Source: Myxococcales bacterium
GTDB taxonomy: Bacteria; Myxococcota; Myxococcia; Myxococcales; Myxococcaceae
Reading direction: 5' to 3'
DNA length: 64,000 bases
Assembly: GCA_020846875.1 (NCBI GenBank)
Contig: JADLDB010000113.1
Span: forward strand, 62,001 to 126,000
The notes beneath the pieces were generated by a model. The model ran no database searches and was not told where the DNA came from. It saw only the letters and a list, made by a program, of their open reading frames with translations. Both the position numbers and the translations under genes were made by a program. Shown piece after piece: positions 18,871-35,779 of the stretch. How positions within the stretch are numbered: the first letter of the stretch is position 1; each line of letters begins with the position of its first letter.

Positions 18871-20439
18871 TCAGTCGAAGATGCCCTGCGCGTAGAACTC
18901 ACCGTCCCGCCCGTCGCGGAACACCCAGAGCTGCCCCACGCCGTCGAGCTCGACGCGGTAGTAGTCGCGGGAGAAGACGTCCTGCGTCCACCAGCCGCCG
19001 GTGAGGCGCTCCGGCCCCCAGAGGGAGTGGACCTTGCGACGGCGGCCCGCCACGTTCATCGAGGTGAGGCGCCCGTCGGTGGCGAGCTCCACCGTGAGGT
19101 GCGCGGGCGTCTTGAAGAGGCGCGGAGGGCGCGTGAAGACCGTGGGGAGGGAGAGCTCCGGGTGGGCTTCCGTCTTCGCTTTGCGTTTCGGCCAGCGGGG
19201 TTTGCTCCCCTCTCCGGGGTCCTCTCGACTTCCCCTCTCCCTCAATGGGGGAGAGGGGACGAAGAAGCGGCGGGGGGACCAGCCTTCCTCCGGGCGGTGA
19301 CGCGCCACCGGCTCGGCCGAGAACAGCGCGTCTTCCCCCAGCGCCGACTGCAGGCGGGACAGCACCACCTCCAGCTCTGCCTCTCCTGCCGGCGCGTCGC
19401 CCAGCTCGAGCTGCCGGCCGGGATCGCGCCCCCTCTCGTCCACGCGTACCGTGAGCGCGCTGATCGGCTCGGCCACGGTGAGATCCGTCAGCCGGTGGCG
19501 GATCAACTCGACGAGCAGCTTCGACTGCCCCGACGGCCGCGCGAGGACGAGCGGCACCTGCAGCGGCGCGCCTCGATCCAGCCCCACCGTCACCAGCAGC
19601 CGCACCGCCGCCTGCTGCCGCCCCTGCAGCCGCGCGCAGAGCCGATCCACCGCCGTCTTCAGCGCGAACAGCACCGGCTCGAGCGCCTCGGCCGGCCAGT
19701 CGAGCAGCACCGTCTCCTCCAGCACCTCGGGCAGCGTGTCCGCCACGAAGCGGGAGTCGTCTTCCCCCCGGCACAGCCGCGCCGCGGTGAGGCCCAGGTT
19801 CCCGAAGCGCGCCACCAGCGCCCCCGCCGGCAGCCCCGCCAATTCGCCCAGCGTCGACAGCCCCAGCGCGCGGAAGGGCGCCGCGGCGTCCGGCCCCAGC
19901 CAGCCGTCTTCGAGACAGCCGAGGGGCAGCGCCGGCAGCTCGACGCCGCCCCGCGGAGGCACCACCGCCAACGAGTCGTTTCGCCAGCGCGCCAGCGCCT
20001 GGGTGGTGAAGCGCTCGCTGCCCACCACGCACCGCGCCTTGAAGCCCGCCGCCCGGCACGCCGCCAGCACCCGATCCGCCCAGCGCGCCTCGCCCCCCAA
20101 AAGCTTCGCCGCCGACGCGTCCAGCCACAGGCCCTCGGGCGCGTCCACCTGGAAGCCCGGGGCGAGCGGGAGCAGCGCTTCCCCCAGCGAGAGCAGCGCC
20201 GCGGCCTCGCGCTCGGGCTCGAAGGGCAGCCGCACCGCCGACGGCTCCAGCGCCGACGCTGACGCCACCGTCTGCCCTGGGCGAATGCCGCGCTTCTGGG
20301 CCGAGCCCGAGGCGAAGCGCACCCGCTGCACGCCGCGATCGTCCGCGTGGAGCAGCACCGGCCGCCCGGAGAGCGACGGCGTGTCGTTCACCCGCCGCTG
20401 CACCGGGAAGCGCGGGAGGTAGAGGTAGGAAAGCCGCAT
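18871..20439 (-). CDS. imuB: Y-family polymerase-like mutasome adaptor ImuB
   Basis: A 522-residue Y-family-like protein that lacks polymerase activity in characterised relatives and bridges ImuA, the beta clamp and DnaE2. The N-terminus MRLSYLYLPRFPVQRR lacks the acidic metal-binding DxD expected of an active DinB-type polymerase. RGIRPGQTVASASAL and the helix-hairpin region LSTLGELAGLPAGALVARFG are typical of ImuB. It starts 3 nt after imuA and ends 7 nt before dnaE2, one operon. A palindrome at 19231-19259 is translated as VPSPPLRERGSRE between the little-finger-like domain and the C-terminal region, an in-frame insertion. Confidence 0.92.
   Translation of the reverse strand: MRLSYLYLPRFPVQRRVNDTPSLSGRPVLLHADDRGVQRVRFASGSAQKRGIRPGQTVASASALEPSAVRLPFEPEREAAALLSLGEALLPLAPGFQVDAPEGLWLDASAAKLLGGEARWADRVLAACRAAGFKARCVVGSERFTTQALARWRNDSLAVVPPRGGVELPALPLGCLEDGWLGPDAAAPFRALGLSTLGELAGLPAGALVARFGNLGLTAARLCRGEDDSRFVADTLPEVLEETVLLDWPAEALEPVLFALKTAVDRLCARLQGRQQAAVRLLVTVGLDRGAPLQVPLVLARPSGQSKLLVELIRHRLTDLTVAEPISALTVRVDERGRDPGRQLELGDAPAGEAELEVVLSRLQSALGEDALFSAEPVARHRPEEGWSPRRFFVPSPPLRERGSREDPGEGSKPRWPKRKAKTEAHPELSLPTVFTRPPRLFKTPAHLTVELATDGRLTSMNVAGRRRKVHSLWGPERLTGGWWTQDVFSRDYYRVELDGVGQLWVFRDGRDGEFYAQGIFD
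19231..19259. repeat. REP-like palindromic element inside imuB
   Basis: Perfect 11-bp arms TCCCCTCTCCC (19231-19241) and GGGAGAGGGGA (19249-19259) around TCAATGG. Translated in frame as PSPPLRERG. It is the best-conserved of the four copies in the window. Confidence 0.85.
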
Positions 20440-27292: not shown

Positions 27293-29455
27293 ATGCGGGT
27301 GGTGATGCTGATCGCGACGGTGGCGCTGGCGGGCTGCGAGGGCTCGGCGGGAGCGCTGGGGGAGTACTCCGCGCCGGAGGCGGTGGTGGTCGATCCCAAC
27401 GCGCCGCGGGTGCTGGCCTTCTCGTGTGACGCCACGGCGGTCAACGCCTCGGTGCCGGTGGCCTGCACCATTCAGGCGTCGCACCCCGAAGGCGAAGCGG
27501 TGACCTGCACGCTCGATCGCGGGGACGGCCGGCCGCCGCTGGAGCTGGGAGACTGCCTTACTCCCCTCAGCGCCACCGTGCGCTTCGCCACGCCCGGCCG
27601 CACCACCTTGACGCTCACGGTGACCGACTCCGAGGGCCGCGCCTCCACGCGCGCGGTGGTGATCGACGTGACGGGCACCCCCAACCGGGCGCCGGTCCTC
27701 ACCGCCTTTTCCGCCACGCCGCCGTCGGGGGCCACACCGCTGCGCACCACCCTCACCTGGGAGGCGAGCGATCCCGAGGGCGATCCGCTGCGCTGCGATC
27801 TCGACGTCGGCGCCGACGGGGCCATCGACTTCTCGGGGATCGACTGCGCGGCCGGGCGTCAGTTGATCGACGTGCGGGAGCTGGGCGTGCACGCGGTGAA
27901 GCTCATCGCCACCGACGAGCTGGACGCGGCCAGCGAGGCGACCCTGGAGATCGAAGTGCTGGAGCCCCGCGGCGACGTGCGGATCTCCCACGTCGACTTC
28001 GGGCAGTCGGTGGTGAAGGAAGGCCTCACCCTGGTGGAGGGCAAGCCGGCGCTGCTGCGCGTGTCGGTGCTGGCGAACGAGGCGGACCTGCCGGCGCAGG
28101 TGGTGGTGGAGGCGTCGAAGGGGGGCGCGGCGCTGGGCAGCCAGCCGCTCACCGGGCCGGCGCTGGCGCCGGTGGCGGAGGATCTCACCAACCTCAGCAA
28201 GCAGTACCGCGTGGTGCTGCCGCCGGAGTGGGTGACGCCGGGCGTGGAGCTGGCGGTGCGGGTGGATCCGGACAACGCGCTTCCCGAGACGGACGAGACG
28301 AACAACGAGCAGGTGCTGAGACCCTCGGTGTCGCGCGGGCACGTGCTGCACCTGACCGCGGTGCCGGTGGTGCAGGGTGGCTTGACCGGCACGGTGCGCG
28401 ACGTGGAGCAGACGGTGACGGAGGTGTGGCCGGTGAAGGGCGTGGAGGCGAAGACGCGGGCGCCGTACACCTGGTCCGGGGTGCTCAGCGGCGGCAGCGG
28501 GACCGCCTGGGGCGCGCTGCTGGACGATCTGGCGCAGGTGAAGGCCGCCGACGGCTCCGAGCGCCAGTACTACGGCTTCGCGCGGGTGACGTACGGGAGC
28601 GGGATCGCCGGCATCGGGTACATCGGCCGGGCGGTAGCCACGGGGCGCGACGACTCGCTGGGCACGGTGGCGCACGAGCTGGGGCACAACTTCGGGCGGC
28701 CCCACGCGCCGTGTGGAGGGGCGGCCGGGGCGGATCCGAACTACCCCTACGCAGGCGCGCGCATCGGCTCCTGGGGCTGGGACGGCACGCGGTTGCTCGC
28801 GCCGACGCAGCACGTGGATCTGATGAGCTACTGCTCGCCGGAGTGGGTGTCGGACTACAGCTACGAGAAGGTGCAGCAGTTCCTGAGCGGCCGGCAGCAG
28901 TTCGAGCCCGGCGCCGTGCTGCCCGATCTGCGGTGGACCGACGCTGCGCTGGTGAGCGGGAGGGTGTTGCCGTCAGGGGAGGTGGTGTGGGCGCCGGTGC
29001 AGCGGATTCGCGCGGCGGTCCGGGAGCCGTCGGGGGCAGACGCCACCGTGGTGCTCTCGACGCGGGCCGGAGGGACGACGCGCGCACCGGTGCGGCTCGA
29101 CGAGACGTCTGAGGGAGAAGAGCGGCACTTCGTCGCGGTGGTGCCGTGGCCGGGGGCGCTGGCGGCGGTGGGCCTGGAGGTGGCGGGGCAGCTCGTCGGC
29201 GTGGAGCGCTCGCTGGGGCCGGCGGTCTCCGTGGACGCGCGCGCGGAGCGGCTCGACGCGCAGACCCTGCGGATCGCCTGGAAGGGCGCCGCGTACCTGG
29301 CGGTGGCCCACCTGGGCACCGAGCGCACCACGTTGGCGCTGGGGGCGACGGGCGGCGAGTTGCTCCTGCGCGTCGACGGCCTGGACGGCGGCGAGCTGGA
29401 GCTGAGCGCATCCGACGGCGTGCAGAGCGAGCGGGTGGCAGTGCCGATGCCCTGA
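27293..29455 (+). CDS. Secreted metzincin-type zinc metallopeptidase, lipoprotein
   Basis: A 720-residue predicted lipoprotein (signal MRVVMLIATVALAGC, lipobox LAGC, lipid on Cys15). Residues about 40-220 are two Ig/PKD-like beta domains (RAPVLTAFSATPPSGATPLRTT; VACTIQASHPEGEAVTCTLDRGDG). A CARDB-like domain follows (about 228-345, ending in VDPDNALPETDETNNEQVL). The peptidase domain has HELGHNFGRPH with zinc ligands His461, His465 and His471, Glu462 as base, and a Met-turn DLMSYC. This combination resembles M66/M12-like bacterial metzincins. A C-terminal beta domain completes it. It is probably anchored in the outer membrane and used to digest protein outside the cell. Confidence 0.83.
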   Translation: MRVVMLIATVALAGCEGSAGALGEYSAPEAVVVDPNAPRVLAFSCDATAVNASVPVACTIQASHPEGEAVTCTLDRGDGRPPLELGDCLTPLSATVRFATPGRTTLTLTVTDSEGRASTRAVVIDVTGTPNRAPVLTAFSATPPSGATPLRTTLTWEASDPEGDPLRCDLDVGADGAIDFSGIDCAAGRQLIDVRELGVHAVKLIATDELDAASEATLEIEVLEPRGDVRISHVDFGQSVVKEGLTLVEGKPALLRVSVLANEADLPAQVVVEASKGGAALGSQPLTGPALAPVAEDLTNLSKQYRVVLPPEWVTPGVELAVRVDPDNALPETDETNNEQVLRPSVSRGHVLHLTAVPVVQGGLTGTVRDVEQTVTEVWPVKGVEAKTRAPYTWSGVLSGGSGTAWGALLDDLAQVKAADGSERQYYGFARVTYGSGIAGIGYIGRAVATGRDDSLGTVAHELGHNFGRPHAPCGGAAGADPNYPYAGARIGSWGWDGTRLLAPTQHVDLMSYCSPEWVSDYSYEKVQQFLSGRQQFEPGAVLPDLRWTDAALVSGRVLPSGEVVWAPVQRIRAAVREPSGADATVVLSTRAGGTTRAPVRLDETSEGEERHFVAVVPWPGALAAVGLEVAGQLVGVERSLGPAVSVDARAERLDAQTLRIAWKGAAYLAVAHLGTERTTLALGATGGELLLRVDGLDGGELELSASDGVQSERVAVPMP

Positions 29456-29637: not shown

Positions 29638-30726
29638 TCAATGGGCGCCGGCGTAGGTGGGCTCGTACTTGAGGACTTCGGCCTTGAGGGCGTCGTCGTC
29701 GCGCACGTCAGCGCCCAGCACCACCCACGACTGCTTCATCGTCTTCGCGGTGCCGGACACCTCTTGATCGACGGTGCGCTGCAGCGCCTTCCGCCGTTCT
29801 CGCAGCAGGTCGCGGGTGGCCACGAGATCCTTCGTGCCGGCGCTGTCCTTCGCCGCGGCGATGCGGCCGTCCAGCGTCTTGAGCTGCGCGTCGACGAAGG
29901 TGAGCTGCTGCTTGTCGCGCTCGATGGCGGAGAGATCGACGAAGCCGCCCGCGCCGGAGCCGAAGGACAGCTCGAGCTTCGAGAGGGCCTGGCCCTTCTG
30001 GGCCGAGGCCAGCACGTAGGCGTTGCCGCCCTCGACCTTCTGCGGAGGCTGAGAGCCACGGAACTCACCGGACTGGATCACGAAGTCCACCTGGCTCTTG
30101 AGCTCCTGGGCCAACTGCAGCGAGTCGGCGTAGCTGGTGGCGGCGAGGATGATCGTCAGATCGCGCTTGCCCAGCTTCTTCAGCGCGGCCTTCGCGGCGC
30201 TCAGCGTGGGGTCGACGGTGACGCCGTGGAGATCGGGCACGGGCCCGGGCGCGGTCAGCCCCACCACGGCCACGGTGACGCCGCCGGCGGTGAAGGTGGC
30301 CGAGGCGTCGAAGGCGGGCTTGCCGTCCTGCTTCAGGTTGGCGGACAGCAGCTTGACGCCGGCGGCGGTGCCCACCTGCTTGAGGAAGTCGACGCCGCCG
30401 GGGAGATCGCGGATGCCGACCGCCATGGCGCGGGTGCCGAGCCGGCCCATCACGTCCATCACGAAGCGGGCGCGCTGCTTCATCGCGTCGTCGGACACGC
30501 CCGAGGCACGGAACAGGGCGTTGCCGGAGTCGAGCACCAGCAGGGGCCCGCCCTTCAGTCCGTCCAGCACCGTCTTTCGCCTGGCCAGACCGCCAGAGGG
30601 GTTGGCCTTTCAGCCACAGGGGGCGACTTCGCCCCCGTTGTCTCCTTCGAAGACGAGGGTGAGCTGCTTGCCGGCGCCGAAGGCCGGGAGCGCCAGCAGG
30701 GCGAGCAGGAGGAAAGCGCGGCTCAC
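29638..30726 (-). CDS. UshA-like metallophosphatase-family protein, candidate selenoprotein (in-frame UGA at residue 39)
   Basis: Read from GTG 30726 to the stop at 29638, the frame is open except for one TGA (30612-30610). Read through it, the product is 362 residues: signal peptide MSRAFLLLALLALPAFGAG, strand KQLTLVFEGDNGGEVAPCG, then UGA, then KANPSGGLARRK and a UshA/5'-nucleotidase-like fold (LLVLDSGNALF, VAVVGLTAPGP). Related proteins have PCGC...GG.xRR, so UGA replaces the second Cys. A 5-6 bp hairpin with a GGUCUG loop lies 12-13 nt downstream, like the fdhF SECIS. The start overlaps the cpoB-like stop (GTGA). A nonsense mutation is the alternative, but the frame and codon pattern are intact on both sides. 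Confidence 0.7.
30580..30597 (-). promoter_or_regulatory. Candidate bacterial SECIS hairpin
   Basis: In the mRNA, UCUGGC and GCCAGG pair (five Watson-Crick pairs plus one G-U) around the loop GGUCUG. The apical GGUCU matches the functional loop of E. coli fdhF, and its distance from UGA (18 nt before the loop) is nearly the same as in fdhF. It also codes for protein, as bacterial SECIS elements do. Confidence 0.55.
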
Positions 30727-31508
30727 TTCTTGCCCCCCTTCTTGCTCAGCTCGGCCAGCTTCGTCTTCGCGGTCTTCGCGGCGTCGGACTTCGGGTACTG
30801 CTTGAGCAGCTCTTCGAGGGCCACCTTCGCCTCGGCGCCCATCTTCAGGGTGGAGAAGCAGTCGGAGGAGCGCAGGTAGGCGGTCGGCGCGGACCTCACC
30901 TTGGGGAAGTCCTGGATCACCTTCCCGTACTCGTAGAGGGCCTCGCGGCACTTCTTCTCGTTGAAGTACGTCTCTCCCAGGCCGAAGTGGGCGTCGCCCG
31001 CGCTGTCGTCCTTCGGCCACTTCTTCATCAGCTCGGTGTAGAGGCGCCGGGCCAGCTCGACGTCGCCGCCCCTCACGGTGTCGTCGGCCAGCTTGAGGTA
31101 CTCCTTCGGATCGTCCGGGCGCCTGGGCTCGTCCTTCTTCGGCTCTGGCGGCGCGGTGGACGCGGTGGCCACGGGGGCGGCGGCCAGCTTCGCCTCCAGC
31201 TCGGCCAGCTTGTGCTGCTGGGCTTCCACCTGCCCGCGCAGGGCGGCCACGTCCTGCAGGGTGGAGTCCACCTTCACGCCGATGTTGGCGCCGGTGGTGC
31301 GCGAGGCCTTGTCCAGTTGATCGAGCGCCTCCTGGAGGCGGGCGGTGGTGTCCTTGAGCTGCGCCTGGGTCTCGACGAGCTGCGTCCCCAGCTTCTCGTT
31401 CTCGGTCTTCAGCTTGTCGACGCGGCTCTCCAGCACCTGCCCGCGATCGGCGGGGAAGAAGCAGCCAGAGAGCAGCACCAGGGCGGCAGGAGCGATCAGG
31501 GTGCGCAT
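30723..31508 (-). CDS. CpoB/YbgF-like periplasmic lipoprotein with coiled coil and TPR repeats
   Basis: A 261-residue predicted lipoprotein (MRTLIAPAALVLLSGC; lipid on Cys16). Residues about 25-110 form a coiled coil (VLESRVDKLKTENEKLGTQLVETQAQLKDT). After an Ala/Pro/Lys linker, residues about 138-255 form three TPR repeats (YLKLADDTVRGGDVELARRLYTELMKKWPKD; AHFGLGETYFNEKKCREALYEYGKVIQDFP; ALEELLKQYPKSDAAKTAKTKLAEL). This matches the CpoB/YbgF plan that links peptidoglycan synthesis to Tol-Pal, but no tol or pal genes are adjacent. It is translationally coupled by GTGA to the candidate selenoprotein. It may be a general TPR scaffold rather than CpoB itself. Confidence 0.8.
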   Translation of the reverse strand: MRTLIAPAALVLLSGCFFPADRGQVLESRVDKLKTENEKLGTQLVETQAQLKDTTARLQEALDQLDKASRTTGANIGVKVDSTLQDVAALRGQVEAQQHKLAELEAKLAAAPVATASTAPPEPKKDEPRRPDDPKEYLKLADDTVRGGDVELARRLYTELMKKWPKDDSAGDAHFGLGETYFNEKKCREALYEYGKVIQDFPKVRSAPTAYLRSSDCFSTLKMGAEAKVALEELLKQYPKSDAAKTAKTKLAELSKKGGKK

Positions 31509-31594: not shown

Positions 31595-34500
31595 CTACCT
31601 CCGTCGCCGGGCACGGAGGAGGGCCACCAGCGACAGCAGCCCGAGCGCCCCGGCGTCGAGGCCGGAGGAGCAGCCGCAGCCGGGCTTCGTCGGGTTGACC
31701 GGATCCACCGTCATCGGGACCTGGTTCTTCACCACCACCTCCACGCGGGCGGGGGCGCTGGCGACCTCCAGATCCCGCACCACCAGCTCCAGGGTGATCA
31801 CCGTGTCGGCGTCGACGGCGGGCGCCACGAAGCCCACCCGATCCTTCGCGGAGACGTCCAGCGTCACGGGCGGGCCGTCCACCTGCGTCCACTCGAAGGT
31901 GAGGAGGTCACCGTCGGGATCGCTGCCGGTGCCCAGCACGTTGACGATCTGCCCTTCGGTCACCTCGATCACCGCCGGGAGCGAGGCCGAGGGGGCGCGG
32001 TTGGTGTTCTTCACCAGCACGGTGTGGAGGAAGGGGCCGGCCACGGCGCGCCCGTCGGTGACGGTGAGCTCGAAGGTCATCGGCGTGTCCACCACCACCA
32101 GCGGGGCGGTGTAGGTGCCGCCGCTCACCGTCACCGCGGGGCCGCTCGTCTGCGTCCAGGTCTGGGTCACCTGATCGCCGTCCGGATCCGACACGGTGGC
32201 CAGGAGCGTCACCTGGCTGCCCTCGTTGACCTCCTGATCCGGGCCGACGGTGGCGGTGGGCGCGCGGTTGGTGCAGGTGTTGGGATCGCCCACCACGGTG
32301 GTGAACGGCGTGTTGGTGATGCCGGTGAAGGAGATGTCGTCCACCTCCCAGCCCTTGGCGGCGGCGGCGTCGTCCGAGCCGATGCGGAAGCGCAGCTGCA
32401 CCGTCTGGCCGGCGTAGGTGGTGCCCAGGTTGACCGTCTCGGTGTTGAAGGTGGGGTAGCCGGGGCTGCGGCCGACGTAGGCCCGCTGGCCGCGCAGCGG
32501 GTTGGAGCCCTGGCTGCCCAGGCTGCCCGAGTAGCCCGGCAGGGCCTGCGCGCCGACGTCCGTCCAGGTGGTGCCGTCGGTGGAGAGCTCCAGCACCGAG
32601 CCGTCGTAGTTCTCACCCGTCTGCGCGTCCTTCTCGAAGTCGTAGCGGTGCTTGAAGGTGATCACCAGGGGCTGCGGGCCGACGTTCAGCGCCGGCGAGG
32701 TGAGCCAGGTGTCCGCCGGCGAGGCCGGGTTGGGGCCGAACCAGTAGTGCTCGGTGGCCGAGGCCTGGAAGACGCGCCAGTTGCTGCCGGTGTTGCCGTT
32801 GGGATCCGACGCGCTGGTCCACAGCGACATCGGGGCCTCCACGTCGTCGGTGGCGGTGCCGTTGGTCTTCAGGTCGTAGTTCAGCCGGAACAGCGCCGAC
32901 CGCTTCACCGGGCCCGGCACCACCAGGGAGGGATCCGCCACCGACACCTCGAAGGCGCCGGCGGTGACGCCGATCATGTCCTGGGCGGCTACCTTCACCT
33001 TGACGGTGGCCTTCATGAAGGGCGCCAGCGCGGGCAACTGCACCATGGGCCCGTCGGGGAAGACGATCCCCGGGGTGGTGGAGGACACCGTCACCTGCGC
33101 CTGGGTCAGCATGCCCACGCCGATGTTCTTGATGGTGACGTTGAGGAAGCCGTCTTCCAGCGCGTCCAACTGGCCGTCCAGGTCACAGCCGCGCACCGAG
33201 TCGTCGAGGGTGACGTCGGTGACGGCCAGGGCGTTGCCCACGTCGAAGCTCTCCACCACCGGGCGGTTGCCGGCGGCGTCGCGATCGGGCGCCACGGCCA
33301 GCATGCCGATGCCGCGCTTGGCGAAAGCCGTCCAGAAGGCGGCGTAGTCGGCGGTGTCGCGAGCGGCGGCCACGGCGAGGAGCGCGTCGCGTGCGTCGAC
33401 GAAGGTGGGCATGAGCGGCGTGGCCTTGTACGCGGCCACCAGGTAGCCCCGCATGCGATCGCGCGCTTGCTCGAAGGTGAGCCGCGGATCCCGCAACAGC
33501 GCCGCGTAGCACTCCCACAGCATGGTGGCCCACACCTCGCCGGTGTTGTGCGCCTCGGAGTTGGACCGCCCGCTCTGCCCGAAGGCCGTGGCCACCGCGG
33601 CCGGCAGGGCGATGTTGTCCTGGATGTGCTTGAAGGTGAGCCCGTTCTTCGCCAGGTCCGTGGAGTACGGGACGCGGCGAATGCCGTAGTAGTAGCCGTT
33701 GGGATCCTGCGCGAAGGACGTGTAGCCGGCCATGCCGTACACGCCGTTGAAGTTGGCGTTGCTGGGTACCAGCGCGTCCTCGGCCTTCACCGTCAAGAGG
33801 ATCGCGTGGAAGTCGCCCCACCCCTCGCCCATGCCCACCGCCTGCAGGTTGGAGATGCCGTTGCCGTCGCCGATCAGCCGGTTGGAGATGTAGTGCCCCC
33901 ACTCGTGGGCGACGATCGCGTTGTCCAGCGTCCCGTCGCGATCCACCGTGGCGCTGCGCACCAGCGTCACCGTGGTGCCCGCAGGCGTCGAACGCAGCGA
34001 CATGCCGGTGGTGCGCGTCACCGACACCGCGGGGATGGTGGTGGTGCCGCTGCCCGACAGGCTGGGCGGGTTCGACGAGGACTGGTTGTCCGCGATGATC
34101 ACCCCCACCGCGCCGTTGGCCTGCGCGTTCTGCACCTTGCTCAGGAAGGTGCACACGCCGCGATCGATGAGGGCGATCTTCCCCGCCACGGAGTTGACGA
34201 AGGCCGGCTGGCAGCCGTCGCTGGCGGTGCCGCCGCTCGAGGCGCTGCCGTCGTCCACCAGCACCAGCTCGCCGGTGACGTTGTAGGCCTGCGGGCCGAA
34301 GGTGGCGACGTTGATGTTCAGCGGCTGGGACGGGGTGGTGTTCAGCGTCACGCCGCCCGACGAGGTGCCGTCGAAGATGTACATCTGCATGCGCGGGCTC
34401 GCGCCGTCCGACGGGGTGGACATGTTGGCGTTGTTGCGGCCCGAGTAGTCCTGCGCCTCGGCGCGAAGCTGGTCGCCGCCCGCGCCGCCGCGGCCCAGGT

Positions 34501-35779
34501 TGGACAGCTGCGCGTTGCCCGAGGCCTCGTTGAAGCCCACGTCGTAGTACCAGTCGTGGAAGAAGTTCACGTCGTAGAAGAGCTGCGTGGCGGCGGCCAG
34601 GCGCTGGTCGGCGTTGGCGTTGGGGTTCTGCGCCGGGTCGAAGGTGCGATCGAAGGCGTTGGCGCTGGTGGTGGTGGGCACCAGGTCGCCGGTGCCGTAG
34701 CCGTTGGGCCGCGCAGCGTCGACGTAGGCGAAGGCGTTGTTGCCGTTGGTCTCGGTGGCGCCGTTGGGCAGCCAGGGATCGTTGGTGCTGATCGGCCCGC
34801 TCTGCAGCGTCACGGTGCTCTGCGGGACGAGGCCGGGATCGTACCCGTTGGGAATGCCGGCCAGGTGCGGCGTGCCGGCGTTGCCCTGGGGACCGTCCAT
34901 CGGCATGGCCAGCGCCGTGTTGTCCGCCCACACCTTGTAGGTGTACGCGTCGAAGGCGGTGAGGTTCTTCCGGTAGAGCAGCCTGCCGTCCACCGCGGAC
35001 ACCACGAAGGAGTAGGCGTCGTGATCCGTGGCGCCCACGGCGAGATCGAGCTCGACGTACAGGCCCGGCTCCAGCCCGTCCGGCACGGGGAACCAGGTGG
35101 GCCGCACGCGGGCCAATTCCGGCTCGTCCTTCAGGGCGAAGCGCTGGTAGCCGTCCTTCACGTCGACGGGCTTGAGCTGCTGGGGCTCCAGCCCCCGGCC
35201 GGTGAGATCCTGGAAGGCCACCGCGAGGGCCGACTCGGAGGTCAACGCGAAGCCACCGCGCGCCTTCACCTCGGGCGTCAGGTAGCCGGCCAGGGCCACC
35301 AGCTCCAGCTCGCCGGTCATCACCACGCGCAGCTCGTCGCGGAAGACGCGCACGCCATCGAGCTGCTGCTGGAAGCTGACGATCACCGCGCCGCCGTCGC
35401 GCAGGTCGTGCACGCCCGTCACCTTCGCCTCGGCCCAGCGAGAGGGCTCGGCGCGGTACAGCTCGGCGTGGGAGAAGAGGAAGCGGCGCGCGGCCTGCTC
35501 GGGCGACAGCCCCATGGCGCGGAAGGTGCGGGCGCCGGGGACGGGCCTCGACGACCAGAAGAAGGTGGGCACGCCGTAGCGGGGCTCGGTGGACGAGACG
35601 TGCCCCGCGGCGAAGGCGGCGCGCGCCCCGGCAGAGAAGCCGCGCGCGTCCGGCAACGACTTCACCTCGGTGCGGGACAGAAACGCATCCAGCGGTGGCC
35701 GCTCGGCGTGCGTCGGCATCGCGGCGAAGGCGTGCGCGGACAGCAGCACCAACACGGCACTCAGCATCCGTCGGGTCAT
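31595..35779 (-). CDS. Fungalysin-type (M36) zinc metallopeptidase with MYXO-CTERM tail
   Basis: A 1394-residue secreted protease. Start ATG 35779 is chosen because a clean signal peptide follows (MTRRMLSAVLVLLSAHAFA) and GGGAG precedes it. An FTP-type propeptide spans about 50-250. The catalytic domain includes a protease-associated (PA) insert (about 505-595) and the zinc motif HEWGH (His625, Glu626, His629), with the downstream EGWGDF glutamate as third ligand. Beyond about 850 come beta-sandwich domains, including a MAM/jelly-roll-like segment and two Ig/cadherin-like repeats (NRAPTATVGPDQEVNEGSQV, NRAPSASLPAVIEVTEGQIV). It ends with CGCSSGLDAGALGLLSLVALLRARRRR, a MYXO-CTERM signal for surface anchoring. 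Likely used in predation or nutrient digestion. Confidence 0.9.
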   Translation of the reverse strand: MTRRMLSAVLVLLSAHAFAAMPTHAERPPLDAFLSRTEVKSLPDARGFSAGARAAFAAGHVSSTEPRYGVPTFFWSSRPVPGARTFRAMGLSPEQAARRFLFSHAELYRAEPSRWAEAKVTGVHDLRDGGAVIVSFQQQLDGVRVFRDELRVVMTGELELVALAGYLTPEVKARGGFALTSESALAVAFQDLTGRGLEPQQLKPVDVKDGYQRFALKDEPELARVRPTWFPVPDGLEPGLYVELDLAVGATDHDAYSFVVSAVDGRLLYRKNLTAFDAYTYKVWADNTALAMPMDGPQGNAGTPHLAGIPNGYDPGLVPQSTVTLQSGPISTNDPWLPNGATETNGNNAFAYVDAARPNGYGTGDLVPTTTSANAFDRTFDPAQNPNANADQRLAAATQLFYDVNFFHDWYYDVGFNEASGNAQLSNLGRGGAGGDQLRAEAQDYSGRNNANMSTPSDGASPRMQMYIFDGTSSGGVTLNTTPSQPLNINVATFGPQAYNVTGELVLVDDGSASSGGTASDGCQPAFVNSVAGKIALIDRGVCTFLSKVQNAQANGAVGVIIADNQSSSNPPSLSGSGTTTIPAVSVTRTTGMSLRSTPAGTTVTLVRSATVDRDGTLDNAIVAHEWGHYISNRLIGDGNGISNLQAVGMGEGWGDFHAILLTVKAEDALVPSNANFNGVYGMAGYTSFAQDPNGYYYGIRRVPYSTDLAKNGLTFKHIQDNIALPAAVATAFGQSGRSNSEAHNTGEVWATMLWECYAALLRDPRLTFEQARDRMRGYLVAAYKATPLMPTFVDARDALLAVAAARDTADYAAFWTAFAKRGIGMLAVAPDRDAAGNRPVVESFDVGNALAVTDVTLDDSVRGCDLDGQLDALEDGFLNVTIKNIGVGMLTQAQVTVSSTTPGIVFPDGPMVQLPALAPFMKATVKVKVAAQDMIGVTAGAFEVSVADPSLVVPGPVKRSALFRLNYDLKTNGTATDDVEAPMSLWTSASDPNGNTGSNWRVFQASATEHYWFGPNPASPADTWLTSPALNVGPQPLVITFKHRYDFEKDAQTGENYDGSVLELSTDGTTWTDVGAQALPGYSGSLGSQGSNPLRGQRAYVGRSPGYPTFNTETVNLGTTYAGQTVQLRFRIGSDDAAAAKGWEVDDISFTGITNTPFTTVVGDPNTCTNRAPTATVGPDQEVNEGSQVTLLATVSDPDGDQVTQTWTQTSGPAVTVSGGTYTAPLVVVDTPMTFELTVTDGRAVAGPFLHTVLVKNTNRAPSASLPAVIEVTEGQIVNVLGTGSDPDGDLLTFEWTQVDGPPVTLDVSAKDRVGFVAPAVDADTVITLELVVRDLEVASAPARVEVVVKNQVPMTVDPVNPTKPGCGCSSGLDAGALGLLSLVALLRARRRR

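Follow-up and report, generated by a model that had tools for sequence, protein, structure and literature searches.

A gene for a predicted secreted UshA-like selenoprotein of a short, heme-free form, paired with a CpoB-like lipoprotein gene in Myxococcales

UshA-like selenoproteins with a CxU motif (COG0737) were reported in 2008 from marine metagenomes, in a paper that counts the UshA-like group among a handful of major families lacking a conserved Cys-based redox motif (PMC2398784). They are listed among selenoproteins in later reviews, in entries that give no function (PMC9312934, PMC13188914), and a CxxU form, of the type covered by the model NF049981 (UshA_like_Sel_2, family 2), is given in an entry of the latter (PMC13188914). 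The curated model NF041198 (NCBIfam, UshA-like (seleno)protein, UshA_like_PCGU) describes proteins with the motif PCG[CU] followed by GG, a metallophosphoesterase-type domain and Sec/Cys exchange; its members above the cut-off have ~520 residues and a tetraheme cytochrome c554-like C-terminal part (profile positions ~375–519) with several CxxCH motifs. A literature search of limited coverage retrieved no work on selenoproteins of Myxococcus or of myxobacteria, and none joining UshA-like domains to multiheme cytochromes.

Within the window, i.e., the whole stretch of 64,000 nucleotides analysed here, a UshA-like selenoprotein gene is located on the minus strand at 29638–30726. By direct reading of the sequence, the frame starts at GTG 30726, ends at the true stop TGA 29640–29638 and is interrupted only once, by an in-frame TGA at 30612–30610 (codon 39), so that reading through this codon yields a 362-residue product. 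A previous sequence-only reading had described a single TGA in an otherwise clean frame from the same GTG, which holds on the minus strand, while the 363 codons it counted are to be corrected to 362 residues plus stop. The N-terminus resembles a signal peptide (approximately residues 1–18) and is followed by ...GEVAPCG-U-KANPSGGLARRK, which includes the C37-G38-U39 motif. The best family match was NF041198 (154.2 bits, 4.6e-45), with which the window protein shares PCG[CU] and the following GG, the metallophosphoesterase-type domain and the Sec/Cys exchange. The cut-off of 275 bits is missed by the window protein, with orthologues scoring 124–171 bits, because of the architecture: the alignment covers only profile positions 22–374 of 519, the short form stopping at position 374. 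Unlike the full-length members, the window protein has neither the cytochrome c554-like part nor any CxxCH, and is accompanied instead by a CpoB-like lipoprotein. NF049981, of the same superfamily but with a CxxU instead of a CxU motif, scored 35.2 bits (cut-off 140). Hence the "UshA-like (seleno)protein" models named in the sequence-only reading do exist, but the window protein falls short of both (154/275 and 35/140 bits). The kind itself, UshA-like CxU, is known; what is new is a short, heme-free and operon-bound branch beyond the reach of the curated model. Downstream of the TGA, a 310-residue frame is open from GTG 30570, the one that automatic gene calling would pick. As the curated model meant to recognise the gene is not reached, ordinary annotation probably cuts it short in many genomes.

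No Pfam domain was matched in the window protein, neither Metallophos nor 5_nucleotid_C, the latter being the C-terminal domain of UshA-type enzymes, for which the protein is also too short. An AlphaFold2 model obtained from 32 aligned sequences (mean pLDDT 90.9) was similar to the N-terminal domains of the 5'-nucleotidases of Thermus (2z1a, Z 31.3) and E. coli (UshA, Z 30.8) and of human CD73 (Z 30.9), as well as to SoxB (Z 29.4), thus supporting a predicted UshA/SoxB metallophosphoesterase domain, with the fold shared at Z 29–31. The two-metal site is a different matter. The ligands of UshA (D41, H43, D84, N116, H217, H252 and Q254) were placed in the window protein through a profile alignment to the Thermus enzyme, and only one of the seven is kept, the first metal Asp (D41), which corresponds to Asp29. 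The other ligand or catalytic positions are occupied by Gly31, Asn69, Ile105, Arg106, Ala196, Gly220 and Phe222, and most ligand positions are lost across the alignment too, 17 of the 32 sequences having His at position 220 and 5 having Asp at position 69. Since these positions are lost in the window protein and mostly also in its relatives, two-metal hydrolysis is unlikely and the protein is probably not a nucleotidase; of the earlier description as UshA/5'-nucleotidase-like, the fold stands and the enzyme site does not. Compared with UshA and SoxB, the window protein has therefore lost the metal ligands, lacks the C-terminal nucleotide domain and has gained the CGU motif. Residues C37, G38, U/C39, D29, E33, R50, R106, D107 and N130 are invariant or nearly so across the alignment and, as judged from the secondary structure of the model and the alignment rather than from coordinates, the CGU motif is placed just past the first strand, where the metals would have been bound.

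A redox role of the C37–U39 pair in the periplasm is the function we favour, as a tentative proposal that falls somewhat short of probable; against a redox step is that the window protein has no thioredoxin fold. The main rival has a metal or other cofactor bound by the Sec and Cys of the motif, with no thiol redox, in a new site replacing the two-metal one. Hydrogenases and formate dehydrogenases bind metals through Cys and Sec, and the position of the motif at the former metal site, the near invariance of Asp29, Glu33, Arg106 and Asp107 and the hemes of the long relatives would all suit such a site; no further invariant Cys or His is present in the domain, however, and we hold this explanation to be unlikely, if worth keeping in view. 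Far less probable is a phosphoesterase or nucleotidase of the UshA type in which Sec tunes the active site: the family name and the fold match to UshA and CD73 (Z ~30) speak for it, but the equivalents of UshA H43, D84, N116, H117, H217, H252 and Q254 are all replaced, and the Pfam matches and the C-terminal nucleotide-binding domain are missing as stated above.

The reading of the UGA as selenocysteine was addressed in 60 related genomes, most of which have a homologue; an orthologue with exactly one TGA, at codon 39, is present in about 30. The relatives bearing names are Archangium-type Myxococcales assemblies, and other families of the phylum have short Sec forms as well (loci L060, L074 and L075). 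The orthologues share the motif GDNGGE[VI]APCG-U-xxNPxGGLARRK. Two of them, in genomes G013 and G021, carry TGC in place of TGA, and at the Sec column the phylum's longer homologues show TGC or TGT. No codon other than TGA or Cys was observed at the residue-39 column among the homologues examined, so that the alignment proposed in the sequence-only reading gives the picture expected of a selenoprotein gene, a conserved in-frame UGA with Cys as its alternative. On both sides of the TGA, 47% of codon changes are synonymous, whereas shifting the reading by one frame gives 27% and 14%; judging from these substitutions, both flanks evolve as coding sequence.

A bacterial SECIS-like hairpin was identified on the minus strand at 30579–30598, with arms CTGGC (30596–30592) and GCCAG (30585–30581) and the loop GGTCTG (30591–30586). 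This is exactly the CTGGC-GGTCTG-GCCAG element (30596–30581), 13 nt past the TGA, that had been noticed previously, and in many relatives its arms are extended by one or two additional pairs. In 28 distinct TGA sequences, 83.7% of the cells of the seven-pair stem are paired and ten stem cells are changed on both sides (2.7 in shuffles). The covariation score of the stem was 0.181, versus 0.091 in shuffles (0 of 500 as high) and at most 0.104 with slid partners; of the two controls, only the one with slid partners takes relatedness into account, and they agree. In one orthologue (L026), the stem pairs in a register offset by one position. A mean of 6.1 of the 7 pairs is formed in TGA loci and of 3.3 in Cys loci, and in the closest Cys orthologues the stem is lost and the loop Gly codon is GGG. 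At this Gly position, every one of the 31 distinct TGA sequences has GGT, a triplet that makes up 6.7% of Gly codons (90 of 1338) in the remainder of these genes. The hairpin hence covaries and is absent from Cys orthologues, which answers the SECIS check suggested earlier. Single-sequence folding energies are not telling in such G+C-rich DNA. Rfam gave no match at gathering score in window positions 20000–42000 and chance-level matches only at 30400–30800, as expected because bacterial SECIS elements differ from gene to gene. The element thus lies just 3' of the UGA, with a GGU-type loop at the distance suited to SelB, the 18 nt from UGA to GGUCUG being the same as in the formate dehydrogenase gene of the same genome. 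Conservation across genera of the GGTCTG loop, the TGA and the protein motif around it, together with the coding-type flanks, goes far beyond what chance would give.

The window's genome (7.06 Mb, computed 100% complete) encodes the whole set of genes whose presence the sequence-only reading had left to be searched, namely SelA (574 bits), SelD (373 bits), SelB (wing domain 47.2 bits; 301 bits with the SelB model, summed over pieces) and a tRNA-Sec gene (68.6 bits; anticodon UCA by ARAGORN). The same genome contains a second selenoprotein gene (L092, G000:C94:52925-54799), for the alpha subunit of formate dehydrogenase (FdhA), whose classical Sec position is an in-frame TGA in the context SCNRT-U-HAPSVVGL, with GGTCTG exactly 18 nt past the UGA, which represents an independent use of UGA as Sec. 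Among the Cys orthologues, that of G021 (98% complete) provides a natural experiment: codon 39 is TGC, no SelA was found, the SelB search gave EF-Tu-like matches only and the borderline tRNA-Sec match is a tRNA-Leu, with no tRNA-Sec found. G013 has retained SelA and SelB and uses Cys, which implies that Sec is not essential. Two TGA genomes count against the Sec reading. In G024 (87% complete), whose TGA orthologue (L043) has the covarying hairpin, SelA, SelB and tRNA-Sec were looked for and none was found, probably because the assembly is incomplete, the alternative being a stranded UGA gene; in G031, no assembled SelB exceeded the cut-off. That the UGA is a real stop or a sequencing error, the locus being in the former case a pseudogene or a gene split into a leader of 38 residues and a protein of 310 residues made from the open GTG 30570 frame, is hardly credible and was rejected, given the same-codon TGA in ~30 independently assembled genomes, coding-type substitution on both sides, Cys as the sole alternative, a hairpin that covaries around an invariant loop, and the severing of the signal peptide from the rest of the protein that a stop would entail. 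Machinery, TGA/Cys exchange and covarying hairpin together support the previous assignment of Sec to residue 39, and selenocysteine is almost certainly inserted co-translationally at this UGA. That the gene encodes a secreted selenoprotein is well supported, and Sec decoding of UGA 39 taken together with the predicted fold is very likely correct.

The selenoprotein gene is the second of a two-gene operon, a feature that the sequence-only reading did not contain. The first gene (30723–31508, minus strand) codes for a YbgF/CpoB-like TPR lipoprotein of 261 aa, and its stop is overlapped by GTG 30726 over 4 nt (GTGA). The partner matches the models of the tol-pal TPR lipoprotein, TIGR02795 tol_pal_ybgF (85.2 bits, not reaching the cut-off of 90.1) and CpoB (48.9 bits); by its scores it is CpoB-like rather than CpoB and it differs from CpoB/YbgF in that neither tolB nor pal adjoins it within the window and in having a conserved extra Cys pair. 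Besides the lipobox Cys, one Cys is present in 37 of 39 partner sequences and another in 39 of 39; the second, unlike the first, is found also in the other YbgF-like protein of the genome and may therefore be an ordinary TPR residue, which counts against the redox step. Lipoprotein and selenoprotein genes occur in the same order at nearly every orthologous locus with enough flanking sequence, L044 being the exception, and the 4-nt overlap is kept at most of them. The outer neighbours vary: the window, G021, G025 and G031 have an M36 peptidase upstream, and other genomes have chemotaxis genes, rpmE or a methylase (names from reading the translations). In the window, the upstream gene (31595–35779) encodes a fungalysin-like M36 metallopeptidase with PA and PKD domains, and a secreted M66-type metallopeptidase with a PKD domain is encoded at 27293–29455, convergent with the selenoprotein gene.

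The window's genome also carries a long paralogue of the Cys type (L109:10159-11700, G000:C62), a lipoprotein that has PCGC together with four CxxCH motifs (Cytochrome_C554) and whose gene lies after a response regulator-like gene. In relatives, a gene for a lytic transglycosylase with SLT and LysM domains comes immediately after the long UshA-like/cytochrome gene at five loci belonging to four families (L098:2893-4566, L099:3641-5170, L102:8802-10727, L103:5759-7498 and L108:8332-10245); we know of no description of this association. With the lipoprotein beside the short branch and the lytic transglycosylase beside the long one, both branches adjoin, on the evidence of gene order, genes of the cell envelope or of peptidoglycan.

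From the TGA, the hairpin, the machinery, the Cys exchange, the operon, the predicted fold and the loss of ligands, we infer Sec insertion, export, a redox role and action with the partner, with confidence falling from Sec insertion to the redox role and again to action with the partner. SelB and Sec-tRNA would decode UGA 39 as selenocysteine, aided by the hairpin immediately 3' of it, and the complete product of 362 residues, with its C37-G38-U39 motif, would be exported via the signal peptide. Its UshA/SoxB-type domain, having kept only Asp29 of the seven ligands, would no longer be a phosphoesterase, and the CGU motif, after the first strand and beside the would-be metal positions, may act as a periplasmic thiol/selenol redox centre through a Cys37–Sec39 selenenylsulfide. 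This redox protein might work with the CpoB/YbgF-like outer-membrane lipoprotein, which carries a conserved Cys pair, in the upkeep of the envelope or cell wall; action on or with the lipoprotein is a speculative step that we consider rather doubtful. The fusion of the domain to a four-heme cytochrome c554-like domain in the longer relatives would fit electron transfer, and the short form would swap electrons with a separate partner.

UshA-like CxU selenoproteins have been on lists since 2008, in entries that assign them no function (PMC2398784), and here a selenoprotein gene is kept across a family of organisms, yet scores under the curated model built for such genes. The short branch offers handles on function in its fixed operon partner, in the loss of the metal site and in the heme fusion of its longer relatives. 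Conceivably, though the odds are against it, the two proteins form a family-wide selenium-dependent redox pair of the envelope, in which the Cys-Gly-Sec motif of a metal-stripped phosphoesterase fold would control the thiol state of the CpoB-like lipoprotein, and so tie the coordination of cell wall and outer membrane to selenium supply; the short branch would be its heme-free form, the other branch being tetraheme-fused and placed beside lytic transglycosylases. As myxobacteria can be grown and mutated, the function is directly testable.
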